Origin: an uncultured Bacteroidia bacterium
GTDB lineage: Bacteria > Bacteroidota > Bacteroidia > Bacteroidales > F082
Length of the DNA: 64,000 nt
Assembly: GCA_902770835.1 (NCBI GenBank)
Contig: CACXUM010000003.1
Coordinates: 1-64,000 of the forward strand
Direction of reading: 5' to 3'
Below are positions 31,334-64,000 of this stretch, one piece after another (position 1 is the first letter of the stretch; each line of letters opens with the position of its first letter). The notes below the pieces were generated by a model. That model searched no databases. It had not been told where the DNA came from and saw only the letters and a program-made list of their open reading frames with translations. The position numbers and the translations under genes are program-made.

Positions 31334-32305
<972 letters not shown>

Positions 32306-32325
32306 AAATAATTAATTACAGGAAT

Positions 32326-33624
32326 ATGAACATTGCAGTAGCAGGCACAGGCTACGTGGGTCTGAGCATCGCCACATTGTTGGCGCAACACCATCATGTC
32401 ACAGCCGTGGATGTGATTCCCGAAAAGGTGGAACTCATCAACCAAAGGAAATCGCCTATTCAGGATGAATACATTGAGAAGTATTTGACGGAAAAGGAGT
32501 TAGACCTTACTGCTACTTTGGACGGCGCATCAGCATACAAAAATGCCGAGTTTGTTGTCATCGCCGCCCCGACCAACTACGACCCGCAAAAGAATTTCTT
32601 CGACACGAGCCATGTTGAGGAAGTTATTGACTTGGTTCTCAGTGTCAATCCCGATGCGGTGATGGTTATTAAAAGCACTGTGCCTGTTGGGTATTCAAGA
32701 AATCAATATGTAAAGTGTGCCGCCAAAGGTGTGAAGAAGTTCAACTTGCTTTTCTCACCAGAATTTTTGCGCGAAAGCAAGGCCTTGTATGACAACCTTT
32801 ATCCGAGTCGCATCATAGTGGGGTATCCTAAACCCATTGCGGGCTATGACAAGGAAAACGAGGCCATCATGTCATTAGTGCGTCCCGACATCGAGGAAAA
32901 AGCCCATCAATTTGCAGCCATGCTTCGGGAAGGTGCCATCAAGCAGGATGTGCCTACCCTTTTTATGGGCATGAAGGAAGCCGAGGCTGTGAAACTCTTT
33001 GCCAACACCTATTTGGCTCTTCGTGTGAGCTATTTCAATGAGTTGGACACTTATGCCGAAGTGAAAGGCCTTGACACCCAAGCCATTATCGACGGCATTT
33101 GCCTCGACCCAAGAATCGGTTCACATTACAATAATCCGAGTTTCGGTTATGGCGGCTATTGTCTGCCCAAGGATACCAAACAACTTTTGGCCAACTATGA
33201 AGATGTGCCGGAAGACCTTATTCGGGCTATTGTGGAGAGCAACCGCACCCGCAAAGATTTCATCGCCGACCAAGTGTTAAAGAAAGCGGGCTATTACGAC
33301 TACTACGACCAAGGCCAATACAATGCCGCCAATGAGCATCGTTGCGTCATCGGTGTGTATCGCCTGACGATGAAGTCGAACAGCGACAATTTCCGCCAAT
33401 CGAGCATCCAAGGTGTGATGAAGCGCATCAAGGCGAAGGGTGCCGAGGTCATCATTTACGAGCCGACTTTGCAAGACGGCACGACTTTCTTCGGCAGCCT
33501 CGTGGTCAACGACATGGCAAAGTTCAAGGCGCAAAGCCAAGCCATCATCGCCAACCGATACGATTCCTGTTTGGATGATGTAAAAGATAAAGTCTATACC
33601 CGCGATATTTTCAAGCGGGATTGA
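32326..33624 (+). CDS. ugd: UDP-glucose 6-dehydrogenase (or related UDP-sugar dehydrogenase)
   Basis: This 432-residue enzyme begins [21 protein letters not shown]. It contains [12 protein letters not shown] and the catalytic Cys279 in [11 protein letters not shown] full C-terminal UDP-binding domain (about 315-432) is present, unlike in the shorter homologue at 37655. UDP-Glc is the most likely substrate by resemblance to Klebsiella-type Ugd; UDP-GlcNAc cannot be excluded given the neighbouring WlbA-like gene. The start at 32326 is chosen over 32296, which would overlap the upstream gene. Confidence 0.92.
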
Positions 33625-36752: not shown

Positions 36753-37172
36753 ATGGTTACAATAAACGATGTAAAGATAATAGAACTACCCAAAATCTTG
36801 GATGCAAGGGGAAATTTATCGTTTGCCGAAAACTTCAAGCAGATTCCTTTTGAAATCAAGCGGACATATTGGCTTTACGATGTCCCAGGTGGCGAATGTC
36901 GTGGTGGCCATGCCTATCGTGCCAATGAGGAATTCATCATCGCCATAAGCGGCAGTTTCGATGTTGTGCTTGACGATGGCAAAGATCGTAAGGTGTTCTC
37001 GCTCAACCGCTCATACTATGGATTGTATGTCCCGAAAGGTCTATGGCGCGATATGGAGAATTTCTCCACTAATGCCTTTGCTTTGGAGTTCGCTTCCACG
37101 CATTACGATGAAGGCGATTACATCTATGATTACGACCTATTCAAAAAGATGAAGTACAATGGAGAAATATAA
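36753..37172 (+). CDS. FdtA/WxcM-like sugar 3,4-ketoisomerase paralogue (His-to-Tyr variant)
   Basis: This 139-residue cupin resembles FdtA/QdtA dTDP-4-keto-6-deoxyglucose 3,4-ketoisomerases. It has KRTYWLYDVPGGE (36-48), ISGSFDVVLDDG and YYGLYVPKGLWRDMENFS. The active-site HAH motif of these enzymes is here HAY (His53, Tyr55), so the second His is lost. Its tandem neighbour keeps HAH. This copy may have a shifted specificity, be a partner in a heterodimer, or be inactive. It overlaps the next gene by 14 bases. Confidence 0.82.
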   Translation: MVTINDVKIIELPKILDARGNLSFAENFKQIPFEIKRTYWLYDVPGGECRGGHAYRANEEFIIAISGSFDVVLDDGKDRKVFSLNRSYYGLYVPKGLWRDMENFSTNAFALEFASTHYDEGDYIYDYDLFKKMKYNGEI

Positions 37173-37578
37173 TGTTTTCGACTGTACAATGGTCGAATTG
37201 GATAGACATCATAGTGACCGAAAAGGCAACCTCTCTGTTGTGGAAAATGGTATAACTTTGCCTTTCGATGTGAAACGAGTGTATTATCTATACGATGTAC
37301 CTGGTGGTGAAAACCGAGGTTCCCATGCCCATAAGGAACTAAGCCAGTTGATTATTGCAGCGAGTGGTTCTTTTACGGTGACATTGGACGACGGCAATTG
37401 TAAACGCACTTTCTTCCTTAATAGACCATACCAAGGTTTGTATGTGAAACCTGGCATGTGGCGTGACTTGGAGGATTTCTCGTCGGGTGCCGTTTGCATG
37501 GTGCTGGCATCAGATGTTTACAAAGCAGAAGATTATATTCGTGATTATCAAGAGTTTTTGAGATTTAGAAAAAAATAA
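37159..37578 (+). CDS. fdtA: dTDP-4-keto-6-deoxyhexose 3,4-ketoisomerase (FdtA-like)
   Basis: This 139-residue cupin retains the active-site HAH motif (His56 and His58 in GSHAHKEL). It also has the conserved KRVYYLYDVPGGE, IIAASGSFTVTLDDG and YQGLYVKPGMWRDLEDFS blocks. FdtA moves the keto group from C4 to C3 of dTDP-4-keto-6-deoxyglucose; the resulting 3-keto sugar is aminated by FdtB to give dTDP-Fuc3N (QdtA/QdtB give Qui3N). A matching transaminase is encoded at 48802. Whether the product is the galacto (Fuc3N) or gluco (Qui3N) form cannot be seen. Confidence 0.85.
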   Translation: MEKYNVFDCTMVELDRHHSDRKGNLSVVENGITLPFDVKRVYYLYDVPGGENRGSHAHKELSQLIIAASGSFTVTLDDGNCKRTFFLNRPYQGLYVKPGMWRDLEDFSSGAVCMVLASDVYKAEDYIRDYQEFLRFRKK

Positions 37579-45293: not shown

Positions 45294-46229
45294 ATGAAAC
45301 TTGGATTTATCAAGCCCACCTATCCGGGCGAAAAAAGAGTAGCATTGCTGCCAGAGCACATCACACCAGATTTTGAAAATGAATTAATCATCGAAACGGG
45401 TTATGGATCGAATTTAGGAATTGACGATACTGTTTACGCAGCAAAAGGTTGTAAAATTGATACGAGAGACAACATTTTCAATACCTGTGACACTGTTTTC
45501 TGTTTGAAACTCATCCAACCCGAAGATTACGCGAAGTTGCGTGATGGTCAGATGATTATTGGTTGGACTCATCCTACCGGTTCTGGAATAGAGTTCTATC
45601 AAAGTGTAGCACGTAAAAAGGGTCTGTTTATCATAGATCTTGACAATATTTATCCTACGGCACATATTGGCGACAAGCACATCCCTGTTCCATTTATAAA
45701 GAAAAATTTTATTTGGAAGAATAGTTTCTACGCAGGCATTGCGAGTGTACAACACGCATTGCTACACTTTGGTTTCTATCCAGATTCGAATCATAAGATT
45801 GCTGTGCTAGCCAGCGGCAGCTGCTCTCAAGGCGCTTATAATTATATCTCTAAATACAATGCCGATGTTCGTATGTTCTATCGCAAAACGATGAACGAAT
45901 TTTATGAAACCATAGGAGAGTATGATGTGATCATTAATGGTATAGAGGTTGATTCAACAGTAAAGCACATAATTACAAAAGATGATTTAAAGCGCGTAAA
46001 GAAAGGTTGTCTAATCATCGACTCGGCAGCCGATGCAGGCAATGCTATTGAGGGTACTCGATACATGTCAATTGCCAATCCAATGTACGAAGAAGACGGA
46101 TTGTATTTTTATGAAGTCAATAATGCGCCGTCTCTTCTATATCGTAGAACCAGTTTTGAAATCAGCAAATCGTTTTCGGAATGGGTATATAGAAAGGATG
46201 TGAAACGGTTTTGGGATTTATTCAAATAA
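45294..46229 (+). CDS. N5-(carboxyethyl)ornithine synthase-like / alanine-dehydrogenase-superfamily protein
   Basis: This 311-residue protein opens LGFIKPTYPGEKRVALLPEHI, the start of the AlaDH/PNT superfamily, followed by a GYGSNLGIDD segment. The later HKIAVLASGSCSQGAYNYI (about 168-186) occupies the nucleotide-binding position, although the classical GxGxxG is replaced by ASGSCSQG. The length of about 310 matches N5-(carboxyethyl)ornithine synthase rather than alanine dehydrogenase (~370). Reductive coupling of an amino acid with pyruvate or a related keto acid is the suggested reaction. Given neighbouring ATP-grasp genes, an opine-type substituent is plausible. Confident superfamily, tentative reaction. 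Confidence 0.65.
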   Translation: MKLGFIKPTYPGEKRVALLPEHITPDFENELIIETGYGSNLGIDDTVYAAKGCKIDTRDNIFNTCDTVFCLKLIQPEDYAKLRDGQMIIGWTHPTGSGIEFYQSVARKKGLFIIDLDNIYPTAHIGDKHIPVPFIKKNFIWKNSFYAGIASVQHALLHFGFYPDSNHKIAVLASGSCSQGAYNYISKYNADVRMFYRKTMNEFYETIGEYDVIINGIEVDSTVKHIITKDDLKRVKKGCLIIDSAADAGNAIEGTRYMSIANPMYEEDGLYFYEVNNAPSLLYRRTSFEISKSFSEWVYRKDVKRFWDLFK

Positions 46230-48801: not shown

Positions 48802-49953
48802 ATGATACCCTTTTTGTCATTAAAAGATGTCACCGCCCTTCATGGTGACGAAATCAACGCAGCCGTCACCCGCGTGGTGAGCAGCGGCTGGTATCTCCAG
48901 GGCGAGGAGAACAAACGTTTCGAAGAAAATTACGCCAACTTCATCGGCACAAAGCATTGCATTGGCTGTGCCAATGGCTTGGATGCTTTGATTTGGATTT
49001 TTCGGGCCTATATCGAATTGGGCGTGATGCAGCCGGGCGATGAGGTGGTTGTTCCAGCTAATACCTATATCGCTACCATCCTGACTATTACGGAAAATGG
49101 CTTGAAGCCTGTTTTGGTAGAGCCGAAACTAAATACTTTGGAGATTGATGATGACCTCATAGAGGCAGCCATCACACCCCGCACCAAAGCCATTTGCATC
49201 GTTCATCTCTATGGCCGCAACGCCTACACCACACGGATAGGTGATCTTTGCAAGAAGTATAATCTGAAACTGATTGAGGATAATGCGCAGGCGCATGGGT
49301 GCTATGCTCCAGTGAAAGGTCACACAGAAAACACGGAAAGCACAGAAAATGTCCGCTTAATGCTGACGGGCAGCATCGGGGATGCTGCTGGGCATTCGTT
49401 CTATCCAGGAAAAAACTTGGGAGCTTTGGGTGATGGTGGTGCAGTGACTACCAACGATGATGCGCTGGCAGAGGCTGTTCGTACTCTTGCCAACTATGGC
49501 TCTTCTAAAAAATATGTGTTCAAATACACCGGGCGTAACAGCCGTTTGGATGAAATTCAGGCGGCGGTGTTGGACGTGAAGTTGAAGTATTTGGTGGAGG
49601 ACAACGCCCATCGCAAGCAGGTTGCGAATTTTTACTATGACTATATCAGCAATCCGTTGATTACCTTGCCAGACCGTTTGCCCGACGAACAGAATGCCTA
49701 CCATCTCTTCCCAATCCTTGTTGGCAAAGGTAAACGTGATGCCATGCATGACTATTTGGAGAAAAATGGCGTGGGAACAGTTATCCATTATCCTATTGCT
49801 CCGCACAAACAGGAGTGCTATAAGGAATGGAATGGAATGAGCTTGCCAATAACAGAATACATTGCTAACCATGAATTGAGCCTTCCAATCGGCCCTAGCG
49901 TCTCGCTTGATGAAGTAGCTCAAGTAGTTGAACTGATTAACAGATTTAAGTAA
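48802..49953 (+). CDS. dTDP-3-amino-3,6-dideoxyhexose transaminase (FdtB/QdtB-like) with repeat-encoded insert
   Basis: This 383-residue DegT/DnrJ PLP enzyme has [19 protein letters not shown], the [22 protein letters not shown] stretch split over family blocks, and Lys204 in [13 protein letters not shown]. This pattern matches FdtB/QdtB. It would aminate the 3-keto sugar made by the FdtA-like enzyme. Between [11 protein letters not shown] and TGSIGDAAG the protein has an extra stretch that includes [10 protein letters not shown]. This is encoded by a copy of the 30-base repeat (49320-49349) that also flanks the GxxExxY gene. Family members I know have no such insert. The repeat keeps the frame, so the enzyme may still work. 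Confidence 0.85.
49320..49349 (+). repeat. In-gene copy of the 30-base CACRGAAAN repeat
   Basis: The sequence starts TCACACAGAAAACACGGAAA and ends with CACAGAAAA. It is in frame within the FdtB-like gene and encodes [10 protein letters not shown]. It matches the repeats at 52042, 52850 and, inverted, 53403. Confidence 0.85.
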
Positions 49954-52968: not shown

Positions 52969-53340
52969 ATGACAGACAACGAGATTACATACGAGATTCG
53001 TGGAGCCATCTATGATGTATATAAAGACCTTGGCCCTGGTTTATTAGAGTCTGTCTATGAGGAAGCTCTGTGTTTTGAGTTGGAACAACGAGGTTTGGAA
53101 GTGGAACGACAGGTTCAGGTACCCATTATATACAAAGGTAATGTATTGAAAACAGAGCTGCGACTTGACATCATTGTAGAAGATAAAGTTATAGTTGAAC
53201 TTAAATCGGTCGAGGAGATGAAGAAAGTATTTGCAAAACAACTTCTCACATATCTTCGGCTAATGGATAAGAGGGTGGGAATTCTTGTGAATTTCAACAC
53301 CGACGACATCCTCAAATCCATGCAACGCATAGTTAATTAA
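52969..53340 (+). CDS. GxxExxY family protein
   Basis: This 123-residue protein has the signature GLLESVY at about 24-30 in LGPGLLESVYEEALCFEL. RLDIIVEDKVIVELKSVE (about 65-82) follows, in which Asp66 and the ELK triplet resemble a PD-(D/E)XK core. The C-terminal GILVNFN (about 105-111) is also typical. The family is very common in Bacteroidota and related phyla; its function is not known, though a nuclease-like activity is suggested by the motifs. It lies between inverted copies of the 30-base repeat, inside a polysaccharide locus with which it has no obvious functional link. Confidence 0.85.
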   Translation: MTDNEITYEIRGAIYDVYKDLGPGLLESVYEEALCFELEQRGLEVERQVQVPIIYKGNVLKTELRLDIIVEDKVIVELKSVEEMKKVFAKQLLTYLRLMDKRVGILVNFNTDDILKSMQRIVN

Positions 53341-53470: not shown

Positions 53471-54556
53471 ATGAAAACTCTTCTAATAACAGGTATCGGT
53501 GGGCTGACGCCGCGAAGCATAGCCACCGTCATTCGTGAGAAATACCCCGACTACCACGTCATAGGCATCGACACCGACAAAAAAGCCATGGGGTTTTTTA
53601 TGTACACCAAAGGTCGCAAGCTGGTGGATGAATACTTTGTTTGTCCTCAGTGTGATAATCCAGACTACTTCCCGTTCATTGAGAAGTTGGTGGCTGAGAA
53701 GCATATCGACTATGCCTTTGTTCAGCCCGAAGCCGAGATTGTGGTGTGGGGCGACTATTACGAGAAGCACGGCAAGCATCCAGTCACTACCTTCATGGGC
53801 TGCAAATTGCTTAGTGAATCGTTGCGCGATAAGGCCATAATGGCCTCGCTGCTCGAAGGTACCGACTTCATCCCCAAGACCATCAAGGTGACACAGAAGG
53901 AACCAAAGTTTGAGGAAGTGGAAAAAGAAATCGGTTTCCCTTGCTGGATACGTGCTACGGAAGGCACTGGTGGACTAGGTTCATTGAGACTCGACAATCT
54001 GGACAGCTACAAATCCTGGCTTTTTATCAATAGTCGTATCGAGGAGTTCACGGTCAGTGAGTTCCTCACGGGTCGACACTTGGCCAACCAAATGCTGTAT
54101 TACAATAACGAGTATGTGAAAGGTGCCGCTTTGGAGTGTGCCGAATATGTGATGGCCAACACCGCACCAAGCCACGTGACAGGCAATACACACTTTGCCC
54201 GTTTCTTGAACGAGGATAAGATTAACAAGTTCTGTGACGACTGTATCAAATATCTCTGCAACAAGTTGAACGTACCCGCCCATGGAATCCTTAGTTTCGA
54301 CTTAAAGGAGGACAAGAATGGTAACTTGAAAGTGACTGAGGTGAATATCCGTCACATGGCCTACACTGGTGTGATGACCCGCGTGGGCTTCGACTTGATT
54401 GGCGACACCATGACCATCTTTGAGGACGGCAATGCCGACCGTATAGTGCGCGACCTGTACCACCACTATGACAAGCCCTATATCTTCCTCCGTGATGTGG
54501 ATGTGGAGCCTATAGTGTTGGAGAGTGAAGAGGTTTTTGAAAACATGAAAGGATAA
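53471..54556 (+). CDS. ATP-grasp domain protein (carbamoyl-phosphate-synthase-like)
   Basis: This 361-residue protein begins MKTLLITGIGGLTPRSIATVI, a Rossmann-like first domain, and then has an ATP-grasp core: EIGFPCWIRATEGTGGLGSLR (about 153-173), EFLTGRHLANQMLYYNN and FDLKEDKNGNLKVTEVNIRHM (about 276-296). The acidic VTEVN block fits the metal site. The start at 53471 is preferred; an upstream frame to 53429 runs into the repeat. It is paired with another ATP-grasp gene 6 bases downstream. The substrate is unknown. Confidence 0.8.
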   Translation: MKTLLITGIGGLTPRSIATVIREKYPDYHVIGIDTDKKAMGFFMYTKGRKLVDEYFVCPQCDNPDYFPFIEKLVAEKHIDYAFVQPEAEIVVWGDYYEKHGKHPVTTFMGCKLLSESLRDKAIMASLLEGTDFIPKTIKVTQKEPKFEEVEKEIGFPCWIRATEGTGGLGSLRLDNLDSYKSWLFINSRIEEFTVSEFLTGRHLANQMLYYNNEYVKGAALECAEYVMANTAPSHVTGNTHFARFLNEDKINKFCDDCIKYLCNKLNVPAHGILSFDLKEDKNGNLKVTEVNIRHMAYTGVMTRVGFDLIGDTMTIFEDGNADRIVRDLYHHYDKPYIFLRDVDVEPIVLESEEVFENMKG

Positions 54557-54562
54557 TATATC

Positions 54563-55837
54563 ATGAAAGAACTAGAAGGTAAAAAACTACTTATAATAGG
54601 TGCTTCGAATGCAGAAGTAGACGTTGTAATAATAGCCCAATCGTTAGGTTGTTATGTGATTGTTTCCGACATGAGGTCTGGAAGTGCCTTTCCTGCAAAA
54701 ATGGTTGCAGATGAAGCTTGGGACATCAGTTGGACAGATTACGATGCGTTGGAAAAACAATGTCGCGAAAGTGGTGTGTCTGGTGTAATGGCAGGTTTTA
54801 GCGAAATCCGCGTTGAGGCCATGATAGAGATGTGCGAACGCCTTGGTCTGCCCTGTTACATTAATCGTGAACAACTTGAGATCACGCGTGACAAAAACAA
54901 GTTCAAGCACATGTGCAGACAGTATGGAGTACCGATTGTTAATGAATATGATCCCAACGATACTAATATACAATTCCCAGTTATTATAAAGCCCACTGAC
55001 CGAGGTGGAAGCATTGGTATCAATGTGGCCTACAATGCAGAGGAATACAAAAAGTATTTGGCATACGCCTATGAGATGTCGCTCACTAAAAGTGTCGTGG
55101 TGGAAGATTTCATTGGCGATGGTGTGAAATTTGATTGCACATACTATATCAATGGTAAGGAAGCCATTTTGATTGAAACTTGTGACACCACAATGCTTGC
55201 TCCAGAAAAAGGCTATGAAACCATGCAGAAAGCATGGTCGTTTCCTTCGAGATATGAGAGTGAGTATATTAAACAGGTTGACAACAATATGAAAGCCATG
55301 CTTGGCGATTTGGGTATGGAATGTGGTGTTGCAAACATATCATTTTTCTACCGTAATGGCAAGTTCTATGTGTTTGAAACGGGTTTCCGTCTAGGTGGTG
55401 GTCATTCTTTCGACTATCAACGCGCCAGTGGAGGAATTGATTTTTTGACTTTGATGATCAAGTATGCCTTTGGCGTGCCTTTCAAAGTGGATACTGAATT
55501 GCCAGCTGACAGAGGATATGCTTTGACATATAGCCCCTATTTCAAACCAGAAGATGGAAGTGTGGTAGAGCAGATTATCGGTTACGAGGAGGTGCAGAAT
55601 ATGAAAGAAATAATCACTTTTATGCCGATAGTCTATGAAGGTTTTGCCATAGAAGGTAATAATCCGAGGAAAATAATGATGATAACATTGTACGCCAAAG
55701 ACTTAGATACAATAATAAACGATATTAACTGTATCAATAACACATTGAAAGTAAAGACCAATAAGGGCGTTTATCCTATTTATGCCGAATTAACCACGGC
55801 TGATATTCTCACCGCATTAAAACCCAATAGAATATGA
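54563..55837 (+). CDS. ATP-grasp domain protein (second of a pair)
   Basis: This 424-residue protein begins MKELEGKKLLIIGASNAEVDVVIIAQSLG. It has FPVIIKPTDRGGSIGINVAYN (about 137-157), VVVEDFIGDGVKFDCTYYING (about 178-198) and FYRNGKFYVFETGFRLGGGHS (about 260-280), the expected ATP-grasp order. It overlaps the saccharopine-dehydrogenase-like gene by 4 bases, so the products probably act on the same amino-acid-derived compound. Confidence 0.82.
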   Translation: MKELEGKKLLIIGASNAEVDVVIIAQSLGCYVIVSDMRSGSAFPAKMVADEAWDISWTDYDALEKQCRESGVSGVMAGFSEIRVEAMIEMCERLGLPCYINREQLEITRDKNKFKHMCRQYGVPIVNEYDPNDTNIQFPVIIKPTDRGGSIGINVAYNAEEYKKYLAYAYEMSLTKSVVVEDFIGDGVKFDCTYYINGKEAILIETCDTTMLAPEKGYETMQKAWSFPSRYESEYIKQVDNNMKAMLGDLGMECGVANISFFYRNGKFYVFETGFRLGGGHSFDYQRASGGIDFLTLMIKYAFGVPFKVDTELPADRGYALTYSPYFKPEDGSVVEQIIGYEEVQNMKEIITFMPIVYEGFAIEGNNPRKIMMITLYAKDLDTIINDINCINNTLKVKTNKGVYPIYAELTTADILTALKPNRI

Positions 55838-57042
55838 AGATAGCTCTAATCAAAGAAACCAAGACCCCGGTGGACAATCGCGTGGCCTTGGCCCCAAAGC
55901 AGGTGGCCGCATTGAACAAACAATATCCCCAGCATCAGATTGTGGTGCAGGCCAGCGACATCCGTACTTTTTCAGATGATGAGTATCGGGCGGAAGGTGT
56001 TGAGGTGGTGAATGATGTCAGCGATGCCGATATCCTCTTTGGTATAAAGGAAGCCAAAATTGAGAGCCTAATTCCAAACAAGCACTATTTCTTCTTCGGT
56101 CATATTGCCAAAATGCAAGAATACAACCGTCCGCTGTTGCAGACTTTCATGCAGAAGCACATCACCTTCTGTGATTATGAATACCTTGTTGATGACAACA
56201 ATATTCGTGTCTGCGCATTTGGATGGTGGGCTGGCGTAGTGGGAGTTTATTACACCCTACGTGGTTTTGGATTAAAGCATAAGTTGTATGAGTTGCCTAA
56301 ACCTGACCGTCGCTTTACACTTGACCAGTTGTTTGATGCGCTGAAGAGTAGTGAGCTGCCCAAGGTAAAATTGATGGTGACGGGAGCAGGACGTGTTTCG
56401 CAAGGTGCGCAGCATGTGTTGGATAGTATTGGAGCCAAAAAAATGACAGAAGAGGATTATTTTGTGACAGATAAGGTAGAGAACCTGTCATATTGCGTAG
56501 CTGATGTGGACCGTTTGGTGAAACGCAAGGATGGAAGTGCTTTCTCTTGGAACGACTTCACGCACAACGCAAAGGAATATGAAAGCGACTTCATGCGCTG
56601 GTCAAAACAAACTGATGTGTTGATTTGCGCCCATTTCTGGGGACCAGATGCACCTGTCTATCTCAGTGAAAATGATTTGCGGAAACCAGATATGCGCATC
56701 AGAATGATAGGTGATGTCACCTGTGACATTAAGGGAAGCATCAAATCGACGGTGAGACCCGCCACGCATGATGCCCCATATTATGATTATAATCCTGTGA
56801 CAGAGCAAGACGAACCTGCTTTTTCTTCTGAAAAAAACATCACCGTAATGGCTGTGGACACTTGCCCGAATGCTTTGGCGATGGACACTAGTGCCTATTT
56901 CGGTGAAATGTTGACGAAACATGTGTTTGAACCATTATTGAAGGGAGAACATTCCGAGGTGATACAGCGTTCAATGATTTTGAAAAATGGCGATCTTACT
57001 CCGAGATTTGGCTATCTTTCTGATTTCGCAAGGTCGAAATAA
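55834..57042 (+). CDS. Saccharopine dehydrogenase (lysine-forming type)-like protein
   Basis: This 402-residue protein opens KIALIKETKTPVDNRVALAPKQVAALNK, the N-terminal pattern of the AlaDH/PNT superfamily. KHYFFFGHIAKMQEYNRPLL then TFCDYEYLVDDNNIRVCAFGWWAGVVG resemble LYS1-type saccharopine dehydrogenase. VKLMVTGAGRVSQGAQHVL is the nucleotide-binding motif (about 179-197), and IRMIGDVTCDIKGSI is conserved as well. LYS1 belongs to lysine metabolism, but here the gene sits between ATP-grasp and SDR genes of a polysaccharide locus. I infer formation or use of an N-substituted amino acid. The true substrates are unknown. Confidence 0.75.
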   Translation: MKIALIKETKTPVDNRVALAPKQVAALNKQYPQHQIVVQASDIRTFSDDEYRAEGVEVVNDVSDADILFGIKEAKIESLIPNKHYFFFGHIAKMQEYNRPLLQTFMQKHITFCDYEYLVDDNNIRVCAFGWWAGVVGVYYTLRGFGLKHKLYELPKPDRRFTLDQLFDALKSSELPKVKLMVTGAGRVSQGAQHVLDSIGAKKMTEEDYFVTDKVENLSYCVADVDRLVKRKDGSAFSWNDFTHNAKEYESDFMRWSKQTDVLICAHFWGPDAPVYLSENDLRKPDMRIRMIGDVTCDIKGSIKSTVRPATHDAPYYDYNPVTEQDEPAFSSEKNITVMAVDTCPNALAMDTSAYFGEMLTKHVFEPLLKGEHSEVIQRSMILKNGDLTPRFGYLSDFARSK

Positions 57043-57079
57043 AGGTACATTTTGGTGTACAATTTATTAAAAAATTATT

Positions 57080-57910
57080 ATGATTTTAAAATCTTTTGCG
57101 GCTCGTTTTTTCAAATATCTGAAGTTTTGTAGCGGTGGTGGTTATACCAATTTGTTGGTTTCATGGGTAAACTACGAGGAAATCCTGAAAGGCAAAAAAG
57201 CGATTGTGACCGGTGGTAGTGATGGTATTGGACTTGCGATAGCAAAAAAACTATTGTCATTGGGAGCTGAGGTGGTTATTACCGGAAGAGACGAACAGAA
57301 ATTGCAAAGGGCAAAACAACAAGTGAATAGTGGTCATTTGAGTACTTATCAGTGGGATGTGTCTGATATTGCAAAACTGGAGGAGAATTTTCTTGCTGTG
57401 GTTGACAGGCTGGGAGGCGTGGATTTATTTGTGAACAATGCAGCAATGGTTTCGTTTCACACCATTTCCAATATGGATGAATCATATTATGACAAGATGC
57501 ATACCACAAATGTAAAGTCGGTTTACTTTCTATGCAGGATGGTCGCCGAATGGTATAAAAAGCATAATGGTGAGGCTGGAGGTAAAATCATCAACATATC
57601 CTCGATGAATGCTTTTATTAATGATGAGTATTTGTATTCGATGACAAAGAATGATATCAATCGGATAACCGCTTCGTTCGGCAAAAGGTATGCTCCATAC
57701 AATGTACAGATTAATGCAATAGCGCCAGGGGTGGTTTCTGCCAGTGTTAATAAGACTGATTGGGAGAGCAATGCATACTGCTCTAGTAATCAAATCAAGA
57801 GGGTTATTCCACCAGAAGAGATAGCTGAGATTTGTGCTTTTCTTGCCTCAAACTCTGCCAATTGCATTGTTGGCCAAACAATATCTGCCGATGGTGGCGA
57901 AACCTTATGA
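57080..57910 (+). CDS. Short-chain dehydrogenase/reductase
   Basis: This 276-residue SDR has an N-terminal extension of about 35 residues (MILKSFAARFFKYLKF) before the core. Core motifs are TGGSDGIG (about 45-52), NNAAMVSF, ISSMNAF and the catalytic YSMTK (about 195-199). The C-terminal ending GQTISADGGETL is typical. It overlaps the AKR gene by 4 bases. The reaction may reduce or oxidise a keto-sugar or a keto acid. Gene content nearby is AT-rich. Confidence 0.85.
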   Translation: MILKSFAARFFKYLKFCSGGGYTNLLVSWVNYEEILKGKKAIVTGGSDGIGLAIAKKLLSLGAEVVITGRDEQKLQRAKQQVNSGHLSTYQWDVSDIAKLEENFLAVVDRLGGVDLFVNNAAMVSFHTISNMDESYYDKMHTTNVKSVYFLCRMVAEWYKKHNGEAGGKIINISSMNAFINDEYLYSMTKNDINRITASFGKRYAPYNVQINAIAPGVVSASVNKTDWESNAYCSSNQIKRVIPPEEIAEICAFLASNSANCIVGQTISADGGETL

Positions 57911-58755
57911 TTATGGAATGTATTGATTGTAATGGCATAGAATTACCTCTTTTGGGCTTGGGGATTTATTCCATGCACAATGGGATTTTGAAAGGTGTAG
58001 TTGAGCAATGTATCAATAACGGATATCGCTTGTTTGATACGGCTCAATTGTATGAGAACGAAGAAGAGTTGTGGGATTCCTTGAAACGACAAAAAGCTAA
58101 AGGTAAAAAGATATTCTATCAAACCAAAATACCAGGAAAACTCTTACAAGGAAGCAAACGATGGTTGTATTTGAACAAAAAGAGTGTGAAGCAACAGTGC
58201 GTGAACAAATATTCTTACATGGAAGGTTCGTTGCCTGATATTTATCTGCTTCACTCTACTTTTCTAGGGTTTGAACGACAGTATGCAAAGATGCTTGATT
58301 TCCAACAGAAATATTGTGTACCTCTTATTGGCATTTGTAATGTGAATGTCGATGAAATAAAATCATTGTACAGTGTTACTGGAAAATATCCACAAGTGGT
58401 TCAAGTTGAAATACATCCATATCATTCAAATCAAATACTAGTTGATTTCTGCAAGGAGAAAGGAATATTAGTAGAAGCGAGATCACCTTTTGCTCATGGT
58501 GATGCTTTGGCTGACTGGCAGTGTGAAGCTATTCTGACTGATTTGGCTCGAACTTATAATAAAACAGTTCCTCAGATTATTCTTCGTTGGATTACGCAAC
58601 AAAAGATAATAGCTATTATCCGGTCGACAAATCCACAGCATATCCAAGAGAATATCGGTATTTTCGGTTTTCATTTGTCCAATCAAGAAATGGAAATGAT
58701 TTCTACTCTGAACAAAGACGAGTCATACGGCGTAAAATCAAAAAATAACAAATAA
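57907..58755 (+). CDS. Aldo/keto reductase
   Basis: This 282-residue protein has the AKR core: LPLLGLGIYSMH near residue 12, FDTAQLYENEEE with the catalytic Asp and Tyr (about 42-53), YQTKIPGK with the catalytic Lys, and YLLHSTF with His. QVEIHPYHSNQIL and IPLIGICNV-like strands follow. The start at 57907 gives a 4-base overlap with the SDR gene; a second ATG at 57913 is also possible. It probably acts with the SDR on the same carbonyl compound. Confidence 0.85.
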   Translation: MIMECIDCNGIELPLLGLGIYSMHNGILKGVVEQCINNGYRLFDTAQLYENEEELWDSLKRQKAKGKKIFYQTKIPGKLLQGSKRWLYLNKKSVKQQCVNKYSYMEGSLPDIYLLHSTFLGFERQYAKMLDFQQKYCVPLIGICNVNVDEIKSLYSVTGKYPQVVQVEIHPYHSNQILVDFCKEKGILVEARSPFAHGDALADWQCEAILTDLARTYNKTVPQIILRWITQQKIIAIIRSTNPQHIQENIGIFGFHLSNQEMEMISTLNKDESYGVKSKNNK

Positions 58756-58767
58756 AACACTTTTCTT

Positions 58768-59925
58768 ATGAATATTCAATCTGTTTATTCGAATATCTAT
58801 GACAAGCTCTGGATAAAAAAGAAATATGGATTGTACATTAACATGTACACCAAAAATCCCAAAAGACTGGCACTTCAAAAGCAATTTCCCCTGAGTGATA
58901 GTCAGAAGAAAGAAATTGATGAGTATTATATGACTTACTATGGAGAGAAGATTCCTTACGAATGCCATCAAAACTTCGCTGTTCATACAGGCGTATTTAG
59001 ACCAGACTATTTCGCTGATTTCCTTTATGTGCCCTATTTTGAACATTTTATTAATGATAAAAGGAATTATGCAAGTGCTTTGTCTGACAAAAGTGTGCTT
59101 CCATACGTTGCTTTAGCAGCAAATGTAAAGATGCCAAAGCACTTACTGACAAATGCTTATGGTGTTTTTCGTGATACAGATAATCGTTATTTAAATAAAG
59201 AGGAAGTAAAAAGAACGCTCTACAATTCAGGTCGGATTTTTGTAAAACCTACAATTGAAAGCGGTTCTGCGAAAGGTGTATTCACGGCGAATATCAAGGA
59301 CGGAGTTGACAAAAAGACTGGCAAGAAATTGGAGGAATTATTTGATTTTGATAAGAAACAAAACTATGTTGTACAAGAGTTCTTGAAGTGTAATGATGAA
59401 ATAGCATCATTATATGACAAAAGTGTGAATACATTCAGAATAATGACATACAGATGGAAAGACCATTTTTATGCTATGCCGGGTGTGTTCCGAATTGGGA
59501 GTGGTGGAGGAGAAGTCGACAATGCCCATGCAGGCGGAATGTTTATTGCGATTGATGATGATGGCATATTGAAAGGTAAGGCGATGACCGAGTTTATGAC
59601 AGTCTATGAAAAGCATCCTGATAGTGGGATACTATTTGATGGATATAGGATAAGCAAATATCCCAAAGTTGTGGAAGCTGCTCTTAGAATGCATGCTATG
59701 ATTCCTGCTTTAGGGTCGGTAGCTTGGGACATGACTATTGATGACACAGGCAACCCTATCTTAATTGAAGCTAATTTTATTTTGAGCGGCTTTTGGATTA
59801 TTCAGTGTGCGCATCCTTGTGCACCATTTGGTGAAAGACAACCAGAGGTATTGCAGTGGATAAAGAAACTAAAAAGTCTGCCATACAGCAAACGTGGCAA
59901 TTATGCATTTGGTTTTGGCCTATAA
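58768..59925 (+). CDS. Sugar-transfer-associated ATP-grasp protein (second copy)
   Basis: This 385-residue protein matches the same ATPgrasp_ST pattern as the gene at 41746. It has a FVKPTIESGSAKGVFTAN (about 158-175) nucleotide-binding loop, NYVVQEFLKCNDEIASLYD, RIMTYRWKDH, and the acidic SVAWDMTIDDTGNPILIEANF (about 315-335). It is therefore likely to form amide or ester bonds between a carboxylate and the glycan. It starts 12 bases after the AKR gene. Confidence 0.82.
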   Translation: MNIQSVYSNIYDKLWIKKKYGLYINMYTKNPKRLALQKQFPLSDSQKKEIDEYYMTYYGEKIPYECHQNFAVHTGVFRPDYFADFLYVPYFEHFINDKRNYASALSDKSVLPYVALAANVKMPKHLLTNAYGVFRDTDNRYLNKEEVKRTLYNSGRIFVKPTIESGSAKGVFTANIKDGVDKKTGKKLEELFDFDKKQNYVVQEFLKCNDEIASLYDKSVNTFRIMTYRWKDHFYAMPGVFRIGSGGGEVDNAHAGGMFIAIDDDGILKGKAMTEFMTVYEKHPDSGILFDGYRISKYPKVVEAALRMHAMIPALGSVAWDMTIDDTGNPILIEANFILSGFWIIQCAHPCAPFGERQPEVLQWIKKLKSLPYSKRGNYAFGFGL

Positions 59926-59943
59926 ATATAAATATGATAATAA

Positions 59944-61038
59944 ATGCCAGATTTAAAGATTAAGAAAATCTCGTATGCAGAGCTACGAGAAAAACCAATA
60001 GAAGTCAAGGACGACAGGTACGATATTGCTGCATATTTTACTGAATCTGTTCGTCAAACATTTTTGGCCTGCCCATGTATTCAAGATGATTCAGAATGTG
60101 CTGTGATATTACTAATGGATGGTGATATTGTCATTGGGCGTGACATTTGTTTCATGACACGTTTAAAAATTGGTGATGAAATAGTGCCTGTACATACAGG
60201 TTGCTCTCAAATGGTATGTGAGGAATATAGGAAAATTGGTGCAGGAGTTTTATTATTTACAGCCAATAGTAATATAGAAGATAAAGTCAATTTTGGAGCT
60301 TCATACACTCCCATAAGGGTAAAAATGTTAAAGAAACAGAAAAGGGTCATTTTTGATATACCACAATATACTAAAATTGTAAATACCCGTCCTGTTTTCG
60401 AGTCTTTATTTGGTTTGAAAGGCGTTATGTTGAAGGTGGCAACACGAGGAGGTAACTTTCTGTTGGCATTGATAGATATTCCCAATAAAATTAAAACCAA
60501 CAAATTGTTGAAGAAATATTCCATCAAAAAAGAAACTATTGTTCCCGAATGGGCGGGAAAAATGGCCACCAATGATGGGCATAAGTATATGGAATACCAT
60601 GACACCCAATGGTTGCAATGGAATCTTGATTATAACATAAATGGACATCCTGAGGATATACAATCGTTCTATTCTGTTTGGGATAAAAAAGGCAACCCTA
60701 ATGGTTTCTTTATGACAAAGGAGAGGTTTGAAGAGGAAGCAGGTAAATACAGAAAAATTGTCAGGGGTTCCATAGTCGAATGGGCAACTGCCGATAATGA
60801 AAAGCTGTCAGAGGCGGATTTAAACCTTCTTGCCATATCAACGTTCTCACCAAAAGTATCAAATATTACTTCAGTAGCAGTTGACAAGCAAACCCAGAAA
60901 GCATTTAAAAAGATGTATTTTCGTTACAACTATGATTTCAAGATGAGTTTCAAAGACAAAACAGGTGAATATTCAGATGGTGCAGACATCTCCAATTGGC
61001 GCATACGTTTTGGCTGTAGTAATTCTATTATATATTGA
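59944..61038 (+). CDS. GNAT-fold acyltransferase-like protein
   Basis: This 364-residue protein contains GCSQMVCEEYRKIGAGVLLFTA (about 84-105), a GNAT-like acetyl-CoA-binding segment. Its C-terminal half (about 200-364) may be a second GNAT-like domain, as in FemAB-type double-domain proteins, but I do not recognise the family precisely. It is preceded by an ATP-grasp and followed by an adenylation enzyme, so aminoacyl or acyl transfer to a sugar is the likely job. Confidence 0.6.
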   Translation: MPDLKIKKISYAELREKPIEVKDDRYDIAAYFTESVRQTFLACPCIQDDSECAVILLMDGDIVIGRDICFMTRLKIGDEIVPVHTGCSQMVCEEYRKIGAGVLLFTANSNIEDKVNFGASYTPIRVKMLKKQKRVIFDIPQYTKIVNTRPVFESLFGLKGVMLKVATRGGNFLLALIDIPNKIKTNKLLKKYSIKKETIVPEWAGKMATNDGHKYMEYHDTQWLQWNLDYNINGHPEDIQSFYSVWDKKGNPNGFFMTKERFEEEAGKYRKIVRGSIVEWATADNEKLSEADLNLLAISTFSPKVSNITSVAVDKQTQKAFKKMYFRYNYDFKMSFKDKTGEYSDGADISNWRIRFGCSNSIIY

Positions 61039-61046
61039 AAGCAAAA

Positions 61047-62573
61047 ATGATTACAAATATTCTTGAATACTTAGAACAAACCGCCAAACGACTTCCAGAA
61101 AAGACAGCGTTGACTGACGACAAACTGAGTCTCACTTTCGGCCAATGGCTGCAACAAGCCGAAAGCATTGGTACAGCCATAGCCCAAGCCTCTAACAGCA
61201 CCATCCATCGTGCAGTGTTAGTCTTCGTTGACCGTCGTATTGAAGGGCTCGTAGGGGCAATGGGTGTCGTGGAAAGCGGCAACTTCTATGTGCCTATCGA
61301 CTGCAAGATGCCTTTCGAGCGTGTACGGCTGATTGCCGACGTGTGCAAACCCATAGCGGCAGTGGCCACTACGGAGGCCGACTTAAAAACCCTGGATCAA
61401 ATTGAGTTTGATGGACCACGTTTTCTCTACAATGAAGTAAAGGAACATCCTGCCGACAAACATGTGCTGGCTAAGATTCGTGAGCAGATTATAGATCTCG
61501 ACCCCGTTTACAGCATCTTCACCAGTGGCTCTACAGGCGTACCTAAAGGAGTGGTCATCAGTCACCGAGGCATGATTGATTTGGCCGACTGGTTGGTGGA
61601 AACGTTTGATTTTACCGACCAAGACGCATTGGGCAACCAAACGCCTTTTTATTTTGACGGGTCAGTCAAGGATATTTGTATCTGTTTGAAGATCGGTGCC
61701 ACACTCAATGTGATAGGAAAGAAGTATTTCACCTTCACCAAACATTTGATGCCTCTACTCAATGAACGTCATATCACAGCCATTCTTTGGGCCACGTCTG
61801 CTATTGTGATGGTGGGCAACAGCGACATCCTGAATATTGCCTTACCTGAGCATCTGCGCCTTGTTACCTTTGCGGGCGAGGCTATGCCTGCAAAACAGCT
61901 TCGTACCTGGCAGGAGAAACTACCCAACGTTCGCTTTGTTAATCTTTATGGCCCTACGGAAATCACGGTGGACTGCACTTACTTTGATGTCACTCGACAA
62001 TATGCTGACGACGAATATATCCCGATTGGCAAGGCTTGTCGCAATATGCAAGTGTTGGTATTGAAAGATGATGACACAAAAGCGGCAGTTGGCGAGGTGG
62101 GTGAACTTTGTGTTCGGGGCAGTGGTGTGGCCTTAGGTTACTATGGAAATCGTGCAAAGACAGATGAGGTGTTTGTGCAGAACCCACTCAATCCGCTCTA
62201 TAACGACATCATTTATCGCACTGGTGACCTGGTGAAACCAGATGCCGATGGCAACTTGGTGTTCGTCTCGCGCAAGGACTTCCAAGTAAAGCATAAGGGA
62301 AATCGCATTGAGTTGGGTGAGATTGAGGTGGCGGTGAATGCCATTGAAGGTGTGACCAATGCCGCCTGTATCTTCGACCAAGAACAGGACAAATTGGTGC
62401 TCTATTACACCACTGCCGACGGACAGCCTATGGACATCATTAACCTTGTCAAGGAACGTATCCCTGTTTATATGTTCCCTGAGGTGGTGAACCACTTGGC
62501 TCAGATGCCTTACAACCTCAATGGCAAGATTGATAGAATTGAATTGAAAAAAGCATACGAAAATGGAAAATAA
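61047..62573 (+). CDS. Amino-acid-type adenylation enzyme (DltA/NRPS A-domain-like)
   Basis: This 508-residue ANL-family enzyme has the ATP-binding FTSGSTGVPKG motif (about 158-168) and LYGPTEI (about 300-306). It also has YRTGDLV, and the C-terminal catalytic Lys in NLNGKIDRIEL. In the substrate pocket PFYFDGSVKDI, Asp204 matches the Asp that binds the amino group in amino-acid-activating A-domains. It therefore most likely activates an amino acid and loads the carrier protein at 63350. The ATG at 61047 is used; an upstream TTG at 61035 overlaps the previous stop. It overlaps the following GNAT gene by 11 bases. Confidence 0.87.
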   Translation: MITNILEYLEQTAKRLPEKTALTDDKLSLTFGQWLQQAESIGTAIAQASNSTIHRAVLVFVDRRIEGLVGAMGVVESGNFYVPIDCKMPFERVRLIADVCKPIAAVATTEADLKTLDQIEFDGPRFLYNEVKEHPADKHVLAKIREQIIDLDPVYSIFTSGSTGVPKGVVISHRGMIDLADWLVETFDFTDQDALGNQTPFYFDGSVKDICICLKIGATLNVIGKKYFTFTKHLMPLLNERHITAILWATSAIVMVGNSDILNIALPEHLRLVTFAGEAMPAKQLRTWQEKLPNVRFVNLYGPTEITVDCTYFDVTRQYADDEYIPIGKACRNMQVLVLKDDDTKAAVGEVGELCVRGSGVALGYYGNRAKTDEVFVQNPLNPLYNDIIYRTGDLVKPDADGNLVFVSRKDFQVKHKGNRIELGEIEVAVNAIEGVTNAACIFDQEQDKLVLYYTTADGQPMDIINLVKERIPVYMFPEVVNHLAQMPYNLNGKIDRIELKKAYENGK

Positions 62574-63342
62574 ATTTATAAAAGAAAGCAAAGAAGCGAT
62601 AGAGAAATTGATTGATGACTGGAAGGCGGAACACAAACCGATTCTTTCTAATTATTTTGGACTTGCCACGGGATTTGATTACGACTATCAAATAGTGGAT
62701 GGTACCATTGTTGTCAGAAAAAAAGAAGGGGATTTCTATCGTTTGTTTGTTCTTTCTACAGATGCTGCTGTGTTGACAACAATTCTCAGTTCTCTTCAAG
62801 AAGAGCATGTTATCAACATACCTTCCAGAAAACCCATTGATGATTGGCAGGCTGTCATGAAAGATAGTGGCTTTGAGTATTATTCAACATATAGTAGATA
62901 TTGCAATACCAAAATTGCAACAATGAAGAAACACAAAACCACTCTGAATATTCATGCCACTGTTGAAAATACTGATGAGATATACCAATTACTAACGGAA
63001 ACTTTTTCACCTTATACAGGACATCTGCCTTCGAAAAAGGAGTTGGAAGAAATGATCTTGAACCAACAGGTATTGGTTGACAAATACTCTAATGGTCGTG
63101 TATGTGGTGTGAACATCCATACCATTACAGGAGTTACTGGATATGGCAATGCTTGGGTTGATAAAGGAGAACGTGCTGTGGAATTGCTTTTGGACATGTA
63201 CAATGAGATGATTGAAAAGGGTGTTAAACGTCATGTCTTTTGGGTTAATGATTCCAATATTGGAGTTGCCAAGATGCATATTAAAATGGGTGCTAAACCC
63301 GATGGTTTGAAAGATTACACATATATTAAAAACAAAAAATAG
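62563..63342 (+). CDS. GNAT-fold acyltransferase
   Basis: This 259-residue protein has a GNAT C-terminal part. GVTGYGNAWVDKGERAVELLLDMYNEM (split over about 189-215) and the terminal VAKMHIKMGAKPDGL segment follow the beta4-alpha-beta5 order. The N-terminal ~120 residues are not recognised. It lies between the adenylation enzyme and the carrier protein, so it may use the aminoacyl or acyl carrier protein as a donor. It starts inside the previous gene by 11 bases. Confidence 0.7.
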   Translation: MENKFIKESKEAIEKLIDDWKAEHKPILSNYFGLATGFDYDYQIVDGTIVVRKKEGDFYRLFVLSTDAAVLTTILSSLQEEHVINIPSRKPIDDWQAVMKDSGFEYYSTYSRYCNTKIATMKKHKTTLNIHATVENTDEIYQLLTETFSPYTGHLPSKKELEEMILNQQVLVDKYSNGRVCGVNIHTITGVTGYGNAWVDKGERAVELLLDMYNEMIEKGVKRHVFWVNDSNIGVAKMHIKMGAKPDGLKDYTYIKNKK

Positions 63343-63349
63343 CAGTGTT

Positions 63350-63577
63350 ATGACAATCAACAAATTTATCGAAAAATTTGCGGAAGCAGTTGAAGTGGAA
63401 GATGCTTCTACATTGAGCGCAAACACCGAGTTTAGAAATCTCGAAGAATGGAGTTCTTTGGCTTATCTTTCTGTCATTGCTCTTATGGATGAAGAGTTTG
63501 ATGTGCAGATTGAGATGGAGGATTTCAAAAAGCTCAAAACTATTCAAGAGGTTTTTGACGCTTGCACAAAGGAATAA
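63350..63577 (+). CDS. Acyl/peptidyl carrier protein
   Basis: This 75-residue acidic protein has the carrier-protein helix pattern. Ser36 in EEWSSLAYL is the likely 4'-phosphopantetheine site (the usual Asp-Ser is here Ser-Ser). The following VIALMDEEFDVQIEMEDF is typical. It probably carries the group activated by the adenylation enzyme for use by the GNAT or KAS III proteins. It lies 7 bases after the GNAT gene and 3 bases before the KAS III gene. Confidence 0.87.
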   Translation: MTINKFIEKFAEAVEVEDASTLSANTEFRNLEEWSSLAYLSVIALMDEEFDVQIEMEDFKKLKTIQEVFDACTKE

Positions 63578-63580
63578 GTT

Positions 63581-64000
63581 ATGGCGTATATACAATATGA
63601 TGGTGTCGGCATCACCGCCATGGCGGCAGCTGTGCCTAAACGCGTTATCGTGAATAGGGAATACACGGAAGTGTTTTCCAAGGCAGAGGCCGATGAGATT
63701 GTAGATAAGACAGGCATCGAACAACGCCGCTTTGCCGACGAGAACACCTGTTCGTCCGACCTTTGTTTGGCAGCGGCAGAGAAGCTGATTGCCGACAACA
63801 GCATCGACAAGGAAGACATTGAGCTATTGGTGTTCATCTCACAGACACCTGACTATAGAATGCCTGCCACATCTGTAACTTTGCAGCACCGTTTGGGCCT
63901 GCCCAACAAGACTATCGCTTTCGACATCAATCTTGGATGCTCGGCATTCATTTACGGATTGTCGGTGGTGTATGGCATGATGGAGCGCAGCAACCTAAAA
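63581..64000 (+). CDS. 3-oxoacyl-ACP synthase III-like protein (3' truncated by window)
   Basis: The first 140 codons are present and run off the window. The start MAYIQYDGVGITAMAAAVPK, TGIEQRRFAD (about 44-53), SDLCLAAAEKLI, and DINLGCSAFIYGLS with catalytic Cys120 match the KAS III/FabH family. Such enzymes in polysaccharide loci can build short acyl chains, such as 3-hydroxybutyryl, on a dedicated carrier protein. It is adjacent to that carrier protein here. The His and Asn of the catalytic triad lie past the window. Confidence 0.88.
   Translation, partial: MAYIQYDGVGITAMAAAVPKRVIVNREYTEVFSKAEADEIVDKTGIEQRRFADENTCSSDLCLAAAEKLIADNSIDKEDIELLVFISQTPDYRMPATSVTLQHRLGLPNKTIAFDINLGCSAFIYGLSVVYGMMERSNLK

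Follow-up and report, generated by a model that had tools for sequence, protein, structure and literature searches.

Gene Content of the Locus

The sequence analyzed in this study, hereafter called the window, comprises the first 64000 bases of a contig of 114068 bases (CACXUM010000003.1, C3) from an uncultured, gut-type Bacteroidia bacterium of the order Bacteroidales, family F082 (assembly GCA_902770835.1; 3.26 Mb, 86% complete). Its end carries a run of eleven genes that the original prediction had taken for a single complete-looking route, in which an unusual amino-acid or opine derivative is made, activated by an adenylation enzyme, and attached to a sugar. All eleven genes were open frames on the + strand, and profile matches bore out these of the assigned families: ATP-grasps, LYS1-like enzyme, short-chain dehydrogenase (SDR), aldo-keto reductase, AMP-binding enzyme, carrier, and ketoacyl synthase III (KASIII). 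The genes were indeed tightly spaced or overlapping (−11 to +37 bases between neighbors within the window), though the run was longer than noted: it extends past 64000 to approximately 69951 in the same orientation, with spacings of −23 to +32 bases. The window does not hold the whole pathway.

The run begins with an ATP-grasp gene of the CPSase_L_D2, PRK12767-like type (53471–54556; 78% identical copy in genome G127) and a second ATP-grasp gene related to the D-Ala-D-Ala ligase C domain (54563–55837), which overlaps by 4 bases the gene for a LYS1-like saccharopine-type enzyme (55834–57042; AlaDh_PNT_N and AlaDh_PNT_C above cut-off). These are followed by an SDR with YxxxK and GxxxGxG motifs (57080–57910), an aldo-keto reductase (57904–58755, with the start codon slightly inside 57904), a “sugar-transfer associated” ATP-grasp (ATPgrasp_ST, 58768–59925; PF14397, 144.3 bits with a cut-off of 31.4), and a possible GNAT, termed GNATa (59944–61038). 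The second half comprises a stand-alone amino-acid adenylation enzyme (A-domain, 61035–62573; TIGR01733, 341.5 with a cut-off of 317.4), a GNAT-fold cap enzyme termed GNATb (62563–63342), an acyl carrier protein (ACP1, 63350–63577) whose best models were generic acyl carriers and not DltC, and a KASIII (KAS1, 63581–64657), within which the window ends. Beyond the window, the same strand encodes SDR2 (64635–65414), a second ketoacyl synthase (KAS2, 65440–66537), a DltC-like carrier (66557–66787), SDR3 (66790–67485; L002:3790-4485), SDR4 (67482–68240), ACP2 (68273–68491), a metallo-hydrolase (68491–69072), and a FabD-family gene (69082–69951).

The LYS1-Like Enzyme and Its Neighborhood

Relatives were sought in 99 genomes of the window's genus (the window's genome included), 173 genomes of the family, and 393 genomes drawn across the order, and neighborhoods were read in stretches of at most 29 kb, some of which ended at a contig edge. 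The best solved relative of the LYS1-like protein was alpha-aminoadipic semialdehyde synthase (E 9e-30), followed by lysine-forming saccharopine dehydrogenase (E 4e-13); alanine dehydrogenases ranked far below these saccharopine enzymes. Eight positions mapped via the PDB alignment, which we take to be the catalytic or substrate-binding residues K13, R18, K77, E78, H96, K99, E122, and R131 of yeast Lys1, were identical in all 53 sequences compared. The originally predicted LYS1-like enzyme thus appears from its residues to be active, and no LYS9 partner was found in its genome.

At E 1e-20, LYS1 matches were present in 80 of the 173 family genomes. Identities of at least 68% occurred in only 10 of them, all within the genus, and the remaining matches were 29–35% identical. 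Neighborhood counts were made on 27 loci with at least 60% identity to the window's LYS1, nine of which are the same contigs as in genomes of the family search; five Flavobacteriales loci (37–40%) were kept outside these counts and inside the residue count. The 27 relatives were all metagenome-assembled or uncultured, mostly Bacteroidales, and many were titled rumen, omasum, abomasum, or cecum.

By tblastn, LYS9 adjoined all 20 distant housekeeping LYS1 genes read (Pfam Sacchrp_dh_C in both of those scanned); no stretch around the 27 glycan loci or the five Flavobacteriales loci gave a match, nor did the window with the 19 kb that follow it. Sacchrp_dh_C was matched in none of the 99 genus genomes, and the same family was matched in 2 of 14 control genomes. 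Lysine catabolism via LYS9 was therefore rejected as the role of LYS1 in this genus. In a FastTree phylogeny with midpoint root, the 28 glycan-locus LYS1 sequences formed one clade (support 0.88), which lay beside the five Flavobacteriales sequences and apart from the housekeeping sequences. The company of LYS1 in the 27 loci was that of glycan genes: Wzx (a cluster named by reading) was present in 23 and directly adjoined LYS1 in 17. Of the same loci, 22 held an ATP-grasp from one of three clusters, 17 a CapA-like protein (one member confirmed as PGA_cap), and 8 TupA. A counterpart of the ATP-grasp at 54563 also precedes LYS1 in L058 (76%) and L068 (67%), and both loci have the window's subset of this ATP-grasp, LYS1, an ATPgrasp_ST relative, and GNATa. 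A second AlaDH/PNT-fold enzyme in the window (45294–46229, + strand), which presumably resembles N5-(carboxyethyl)ornithine synthase, has an 86% identical copy directly after LYS1 in L058. At E 1e-30 it had matches in 5 of the 173 family genomes, with identities of at least 79% in four, the window's among them, and it is present in G056, G077, and G099, from which LYS1 is absent.

With no LYS9 found, glycan genes as neighbors, and a clade of its own, the LYS1-like enzyme most likely makes an end product, an opine that enters the glycan, for which the ATP-grasps would be the natural ligases. ATP-grasp amidoligases are reportedly the subject of a study by Iyer et al. in 2009. The fold family is, however, common with alanine dehydrogenase, and the substrate of the LYS1-like enzyme is a prediction; the enzyme might form no opine and instead be a reductase, such as an amino-acid dehydrogenase, that glycan loci have recruited. 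We consider this unlikely, since the closest solved relatives are saccharopine enzymes and the Lys1 positions listed above are kept.

Some variation among the LYS1 loci was also observed. L055 contains two LYS1-like copies (10001 and 14884), 4.9 kb apart and each 86% identical to the window's. CapA-like genes alternate with ATPgrasp_ST at least twice in L052, L057, and L069, as if pairs added successive glycan residues. Just upstream of LYS1 in L057 and L060 (G127 and G129), what reads as a split transketolase pair is flanked by SDRs on one side and by an ACP/AMP-ligase/KAS group on the other.

The A-Domain and Its Conserved Cassette

The best PDB match of the A-domain was LgrA. The pocket code of the window's enzyme, DGKLTALVDK (by motif offsets), was found in 5 of 17 homologues, the others with this code being those of G070, G095, G126, and G525, and could not be assigned to a substrate. 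The amine-binding Asp, D208, which we take to be equivalent to Asp235 of GrsA (set by motif), was kept in 17 of 17, consistent with the amino-acid type originally predicted. The A-domain search matched 30 of the 99 genus genomes at E 1e-40, of which the close family was taken to comprise only the 7 at approximately E 1e-100 or better (the other six are 37–90% identical to the window's). The remaining matches were at 1e-52 and weaker, many of them in large nonribosomal peptide synthetase (NRPS) frames. A search of the 393 genomes from across the order at E 1e-85 gave homologues in 11, among them the window's. The 90% identity of the homologue in G525, which belongs to another family, suggests transfer. 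The window's genome also has A-domain matches in 2485- and 1718-residue frames (G000:C6:94859-99328 and G000:C34:30854-32284), and many genus genomes have such matches in frames of approximately 2400 residues; these frames are probably NRPS genes.

Seventeen A-domain loci were read; G184, cut off by a contig end beyond the A-domain, was dropped, leaving 15 readable loci besides the window. In all 15, the A-domain was followed by a cap enzyme and a DltC-like carrier in this order (fused in G097), the carrier lying 2.3–2.4 kb after the A-domain start. A KASIII-like gene was present in 15 of these loci, an SDR in 14, a PglD-type acyltransferase in 9, and a metallo-hydrolase in 8, and a further carrier was found in 15 (13 by tblastn and 2 more by blastp). 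The three closest genus A-domains adjoin the three closest KAS2 relatives. A Pfam scan detected no condensation domain among the cassette proteins that it covered.

The run of the window contains three carriers, namely ACP1, the DltC-like carrier, and ACP2. DltC was among the best models of the carrier at 66557 (33.2, below the cut-off of 52.35). Because a DltC-like carrier, corresponding to the one at 66557 in the window, is retained in all 15 other loci, the adjacent ACP at 63350, with which the A-domain had originally been paired, was rejected as its partner; the conserved partner is probably the carrier at 66557–66787. The window is a rearranged member of this cassette, with ACP1, KAS1, SDR2, and KAS2 between cap and carrier. 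KAS1 and KAS2 are FabH-like with Cys, His, and Asn motifs, and SDR2 and SDR4 keep YxxxK. With three FabD-family genes above the cut-off in the window's genome, the one at the end of the run was rejected as a lone housekeeping gene.

Exchange of the Cap Enzyme

A putative cap gene was present in all 16 readable loci, the window included. At this position, 12 of the 15 other loci have a Pfam GNAT, and the remaining 3 (G070, G523, and G232) a Pfam formyltransferase in which N-x-H and D motifs are present. Of the two GNATs originally predicted in the window, the one at 62563–63342 held up: GNATb had no Pfam match of its own, and its AlphaFold model (pLDDT 86) matched solved GNATs with E values down to 1.4e-12 and TM scores of 0.5–0.66 for the first ten, in line with the GNATs at this place elsewhere. 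By sequence at E 1e-8, GNATb was found in 1 of the 173 family genomes, its own. The call was weaker for GNATa, which had no Pfam match of its own (only sub-threshold matches in two relatives), no meaningful PDB profile match, and a poor predicted structure (pLDDT 49) that was not used.

Amines are common acceptors for both formyltransferases and GNATs, and in LgrA it is an amino acid bound to a carrier that is formylated; the cap place therefore points to N-capping of the carrier-bound amino acid before KAS extension.

Separate Inheritance of the Two Halves

We then compared the distribution of the LYS1 half (cassette A) with that of the A-domain half (cassette B). Within the genus, LYS1 occurred in 10 of 99 genomes and the close A-domain family in 7, and both were present only in the window's genome. 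LYS1 was found in none of the stretches read around the 15 other readable A-domain loci, and the A-domain, at 35% identity or more, in none of the 27 LYS1 loci. On this sequence evidence, A and B appear as two cassettes inherited separately. The window's DegT aminotransferase is 86–87% identical in G070 and G134, where it lies near different acyl cassettes, accompanied in both by a related glycosyltransferase (63–68%) and PssY; R-group genes vary in a comparable way among strains of Flavobacterium psychrophilum (PMC6519341).

These results bear on the single route of the original prediction, in which the LYS1 opine would itself be the substrate of the A-domain. The genes do stand in one tight run, and opines on amino sugars exist, such as the carboxyethyl-alanyl group of Providencia alcalifaciens O35 (available portion of PMC10609480). 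A distant AMP-ligase (24–27% identical to the A-domain) was present in 4 of the 27 LYS1 loci and a KAS in 6, which partly speaks for a link. By comparison, KAS2 relatives were present in 43 of the 99 genus genomes, and a specific link of KAS with LYS1 was not adopted. GNATa argues against full separation, since its relatives lie beside LYS1 and ATP-grasps (G053 and L058) and also in a KAS cassette of G104. Nevertheless, the two kinds of loci do not overlap elsewhere in the stretches read, and G070, G095, and G126, genus members with the same pocket code, have no LYS1 genome-wide at E 1e-20. Activation of the opine by the A-domain was therefore rejected by separate inheritance, and we regard one joint pathway as most improbable. 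The original interpretation is thus partly supported, with separate amino-acid and opine decorations rather than one product.

Setting and Proposed Pathways

The upstream part of the locus contains a nucleotide-sugar dehydrogenase, two FdtA-family proteins, WecE- and DegT-type aminotransferases, and three further ATP-grasps; glycosyltransferases and PssY, and downstream Wza/Wzc-type export genes, were recognized by reading only. This content supports the surface-glycan setting originally assumed. The dehydrogenase (32296–33624, + strand) was above the cut-off of TIGR03026, and its best model was UDP-glucose 6-dehydrogenase, below that model's cut-off; its product could be a uronic acid able to carry an amide. 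The tandem FdtA-family proteins of the ketoisomerase type (36753–37578, + strand) suggest a 3-amino-3,6-dideoxyhexose, and the DegT sugar aminotransferase (48802–49953, + strand) is the likely source of the amino group that would be acylated. A small GxxExxY-type protein (by reading, 52969–53340) lies ahead of the first ATP-grasp, with similar proteins in 4 of 10 loci compared, the window's included.

Taken together, the stretch may represent the decoration part of a surface-polysaccharide locus with two cassettes, an explanation to which, as a whole, we assign a probability of roughly 0.5. Cassette A would span approximately 54563–61038, perhaps with 45294–46229. Its LYS1-like enzyme would condense 2-oxoglutarate with an amino acid, lysine in the simplest case, to saccharopine or a close opine, and ATP-grasp ligases would then form an amide between this product and either the carboxyl group of a sugar or a further amino acid. 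In cassette B (61035–69951), the A-domain would load an alpha-amino acid onto the DltC-like carrier, and the GNAT-fold enzyme would cap the amino group with an acetyl or similar group (formyl in the formyltransferase-bearing relatives). KASIII and SDRs would then extend and reduce the capped aminoacyl group, for which FabD and the remaining carriers would provide malonyl units. Finally, a sugar acyltransferase would transfer the capped amino-hydroxy acid onto an amino sugar, for example, 3-amino-3,6-dideoxyhexose.

Several observations weigh against this explanation. The DltC-like carrier of the window lies 3 kb further on than in the other loci, behind ACP1-KAS1-SDR2-KAS2. GNATb is 18–23% identical to five aligned GNAT caps and is without the presumed CoA-loop glycine kept by all five. 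SDR3 has no catalytic tyrosine: both here and in G070, its YxxxK motif reads FCASK and its glycine motif is altered, so that it is probably a non-catalytic partner of SDR4. No PglD acyltransferase was detected in 58001–72000 by tblastn with two PglD queries, as in 6 of the 15 other loci. Because the window's genome is 86% complete, its own missing LYS9 is weaker evidence than the genus-wide absence. Acceptance of a capped aminoacyl-carrier by KASIII, like all products and activities proposed here, is what we infer from the genes. Finally, the 43 genus genomes with KAS2 relatives (at E 1e-40) need not all have the same kind, KAS cassettes without an A-domain occurred in stretches read from G134, G098, and G104, and the KAS could serve another substituent.

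The A-domain-free KAS cassettes would suit an alternative in which the products of cassette B are two simple groups: one, N-acetyl- or N-formyl-aminoacyl, would come directly from A-domain and cap, and a separate 3-hydroxyacyl group would be made by KAS and SDR, the two being placed on different amino groups or one upon the other (as in 3-hydroxybutyryl-alanyl). Both kinds of group are known on amino sugars, including N-acetylglycyl, N-acetyl-threonyl, and 3-hydroxybutyryl-D-alanyl (available portions of PMC10609480 and PMC3210612). However, a KAS was kept in all 15 other A-domain loci, including the three formyl loci, where a KAS-made acyl group cannot be the cap; chain extension is therefore the simplest reading there, and the two-group alternative is possible but doubtful. 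A released small molecule, that is, a secondary metabolite, would fit the A-domain, carrier, and KAS, which look like parts of NRPS and polyketide synthase (PKS) systems. Nevertheless, the genes found around the cassette, both here and in most of the relatives read, are those of glycan loci (PssY, DegT aminotransferases, PglD, and glycosyltransferases; no search for a dedicated exporter was made), and we consider such a product highly unlikely.

Within the two-cassette explanation, we tentatively suggest that Bacteroidales have a portable stand-alone NRPS/type-II-PKS hybrid that would place N-acetyl- or N-formyl-capped gamma-amino-beta-hydroxy (statine-like) acyl groups, which would be a new class of glycan substituent, on amino sugars, the window's lineage adding saccharopine-type opines as glycan building blocks; this specific proposal is possible rather than probable. 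To our knowledge, the genes for many non-sugar groups of bacterial surface glycans have not been identified. The exchange of GNAT and formyltransferase, with the rest of the cassette constant, converts the loose observation of an A-domain near sugars into a sequence of steps that can be tested. A LYS1 gene that has no LYS9 partner may, in turn, mark genomes with opine-bearing glycans. Both could aid the sequence-based prediction of gut-bacterial surface chemistry.

Comparison with Known Systems

LYS1-type sequence and catalytic positions are common to cassette A and the saccharopine pathway (LYS1 plus LYS9), from which the cassette differs in that LYS9 was found in none of the 99 genus genomes and in the separate clade of the glycan-locus sequences. 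In the initiation module of the linear gramicidin synthase LgrA, formylation, A-domain, and carrier follow in order. LgrA resembles cassette B as the best PDB match of the A-domain, and the three formyl loci combine a formyltransferase with an A-domain and a carrier. In contrast to LgrA, each part is a small protein of its own, most caps are GNATs, and a KASIII-like gene follows instead of a condensation domain. DltA and DltC were among the best models of the A-domain and the 66557 carrier, respectively, but both proteins fell below the curated cut-offs (287.5 of 559.85 for the A-domain against DltA; 33.2 of 52.35 for the carrier), which sets them apart from DltABCD.

Opines also serve as glycan substituents in Providencia O-antigens, with carboxyethyl-lysine in P. 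rustigianii O14 and carboxyethyl-alanyl in P. alcalifaciens O35 (PMC10609480). These are carboxyethyl (pyruvate-type) groups, and the available portion of that source shows no saccharopine-type substituent. Among the open-access literature matches listed, none tied saccharopine to a surface glycan and none described a cassette of A-domain, cap, carrier, and KAS.

A close parallel for cassette B as a pathway is wfpC-wfpG of the Flavobacterium psychrophilum O-polysaccharide, predicted to make a 3,5-dihydroxyhexanoyl group and attach it to an amino sugar, with R-group genes that vary among strains (PMC6519341, available portion). Two ketoacyl synthases, a dedicated carrier, and a ketoreductase are common to that pathway and the run of the window. 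Its PglD-type acyltransferase was not found near the window's A-domain and is present in 9 of the 15 other loci; the window's cassette would therefore work like the F. psychrophilum pathway and is not classed as a member. In turn, the available portion of PMC6519341 mentions no A-domain, cap, or DltC-like carrier, and the word “adenylation” does not occur in the text of that paper. Unlike in F. psychrophilum, the starter in the window's cassette is probably a capped amino acid.

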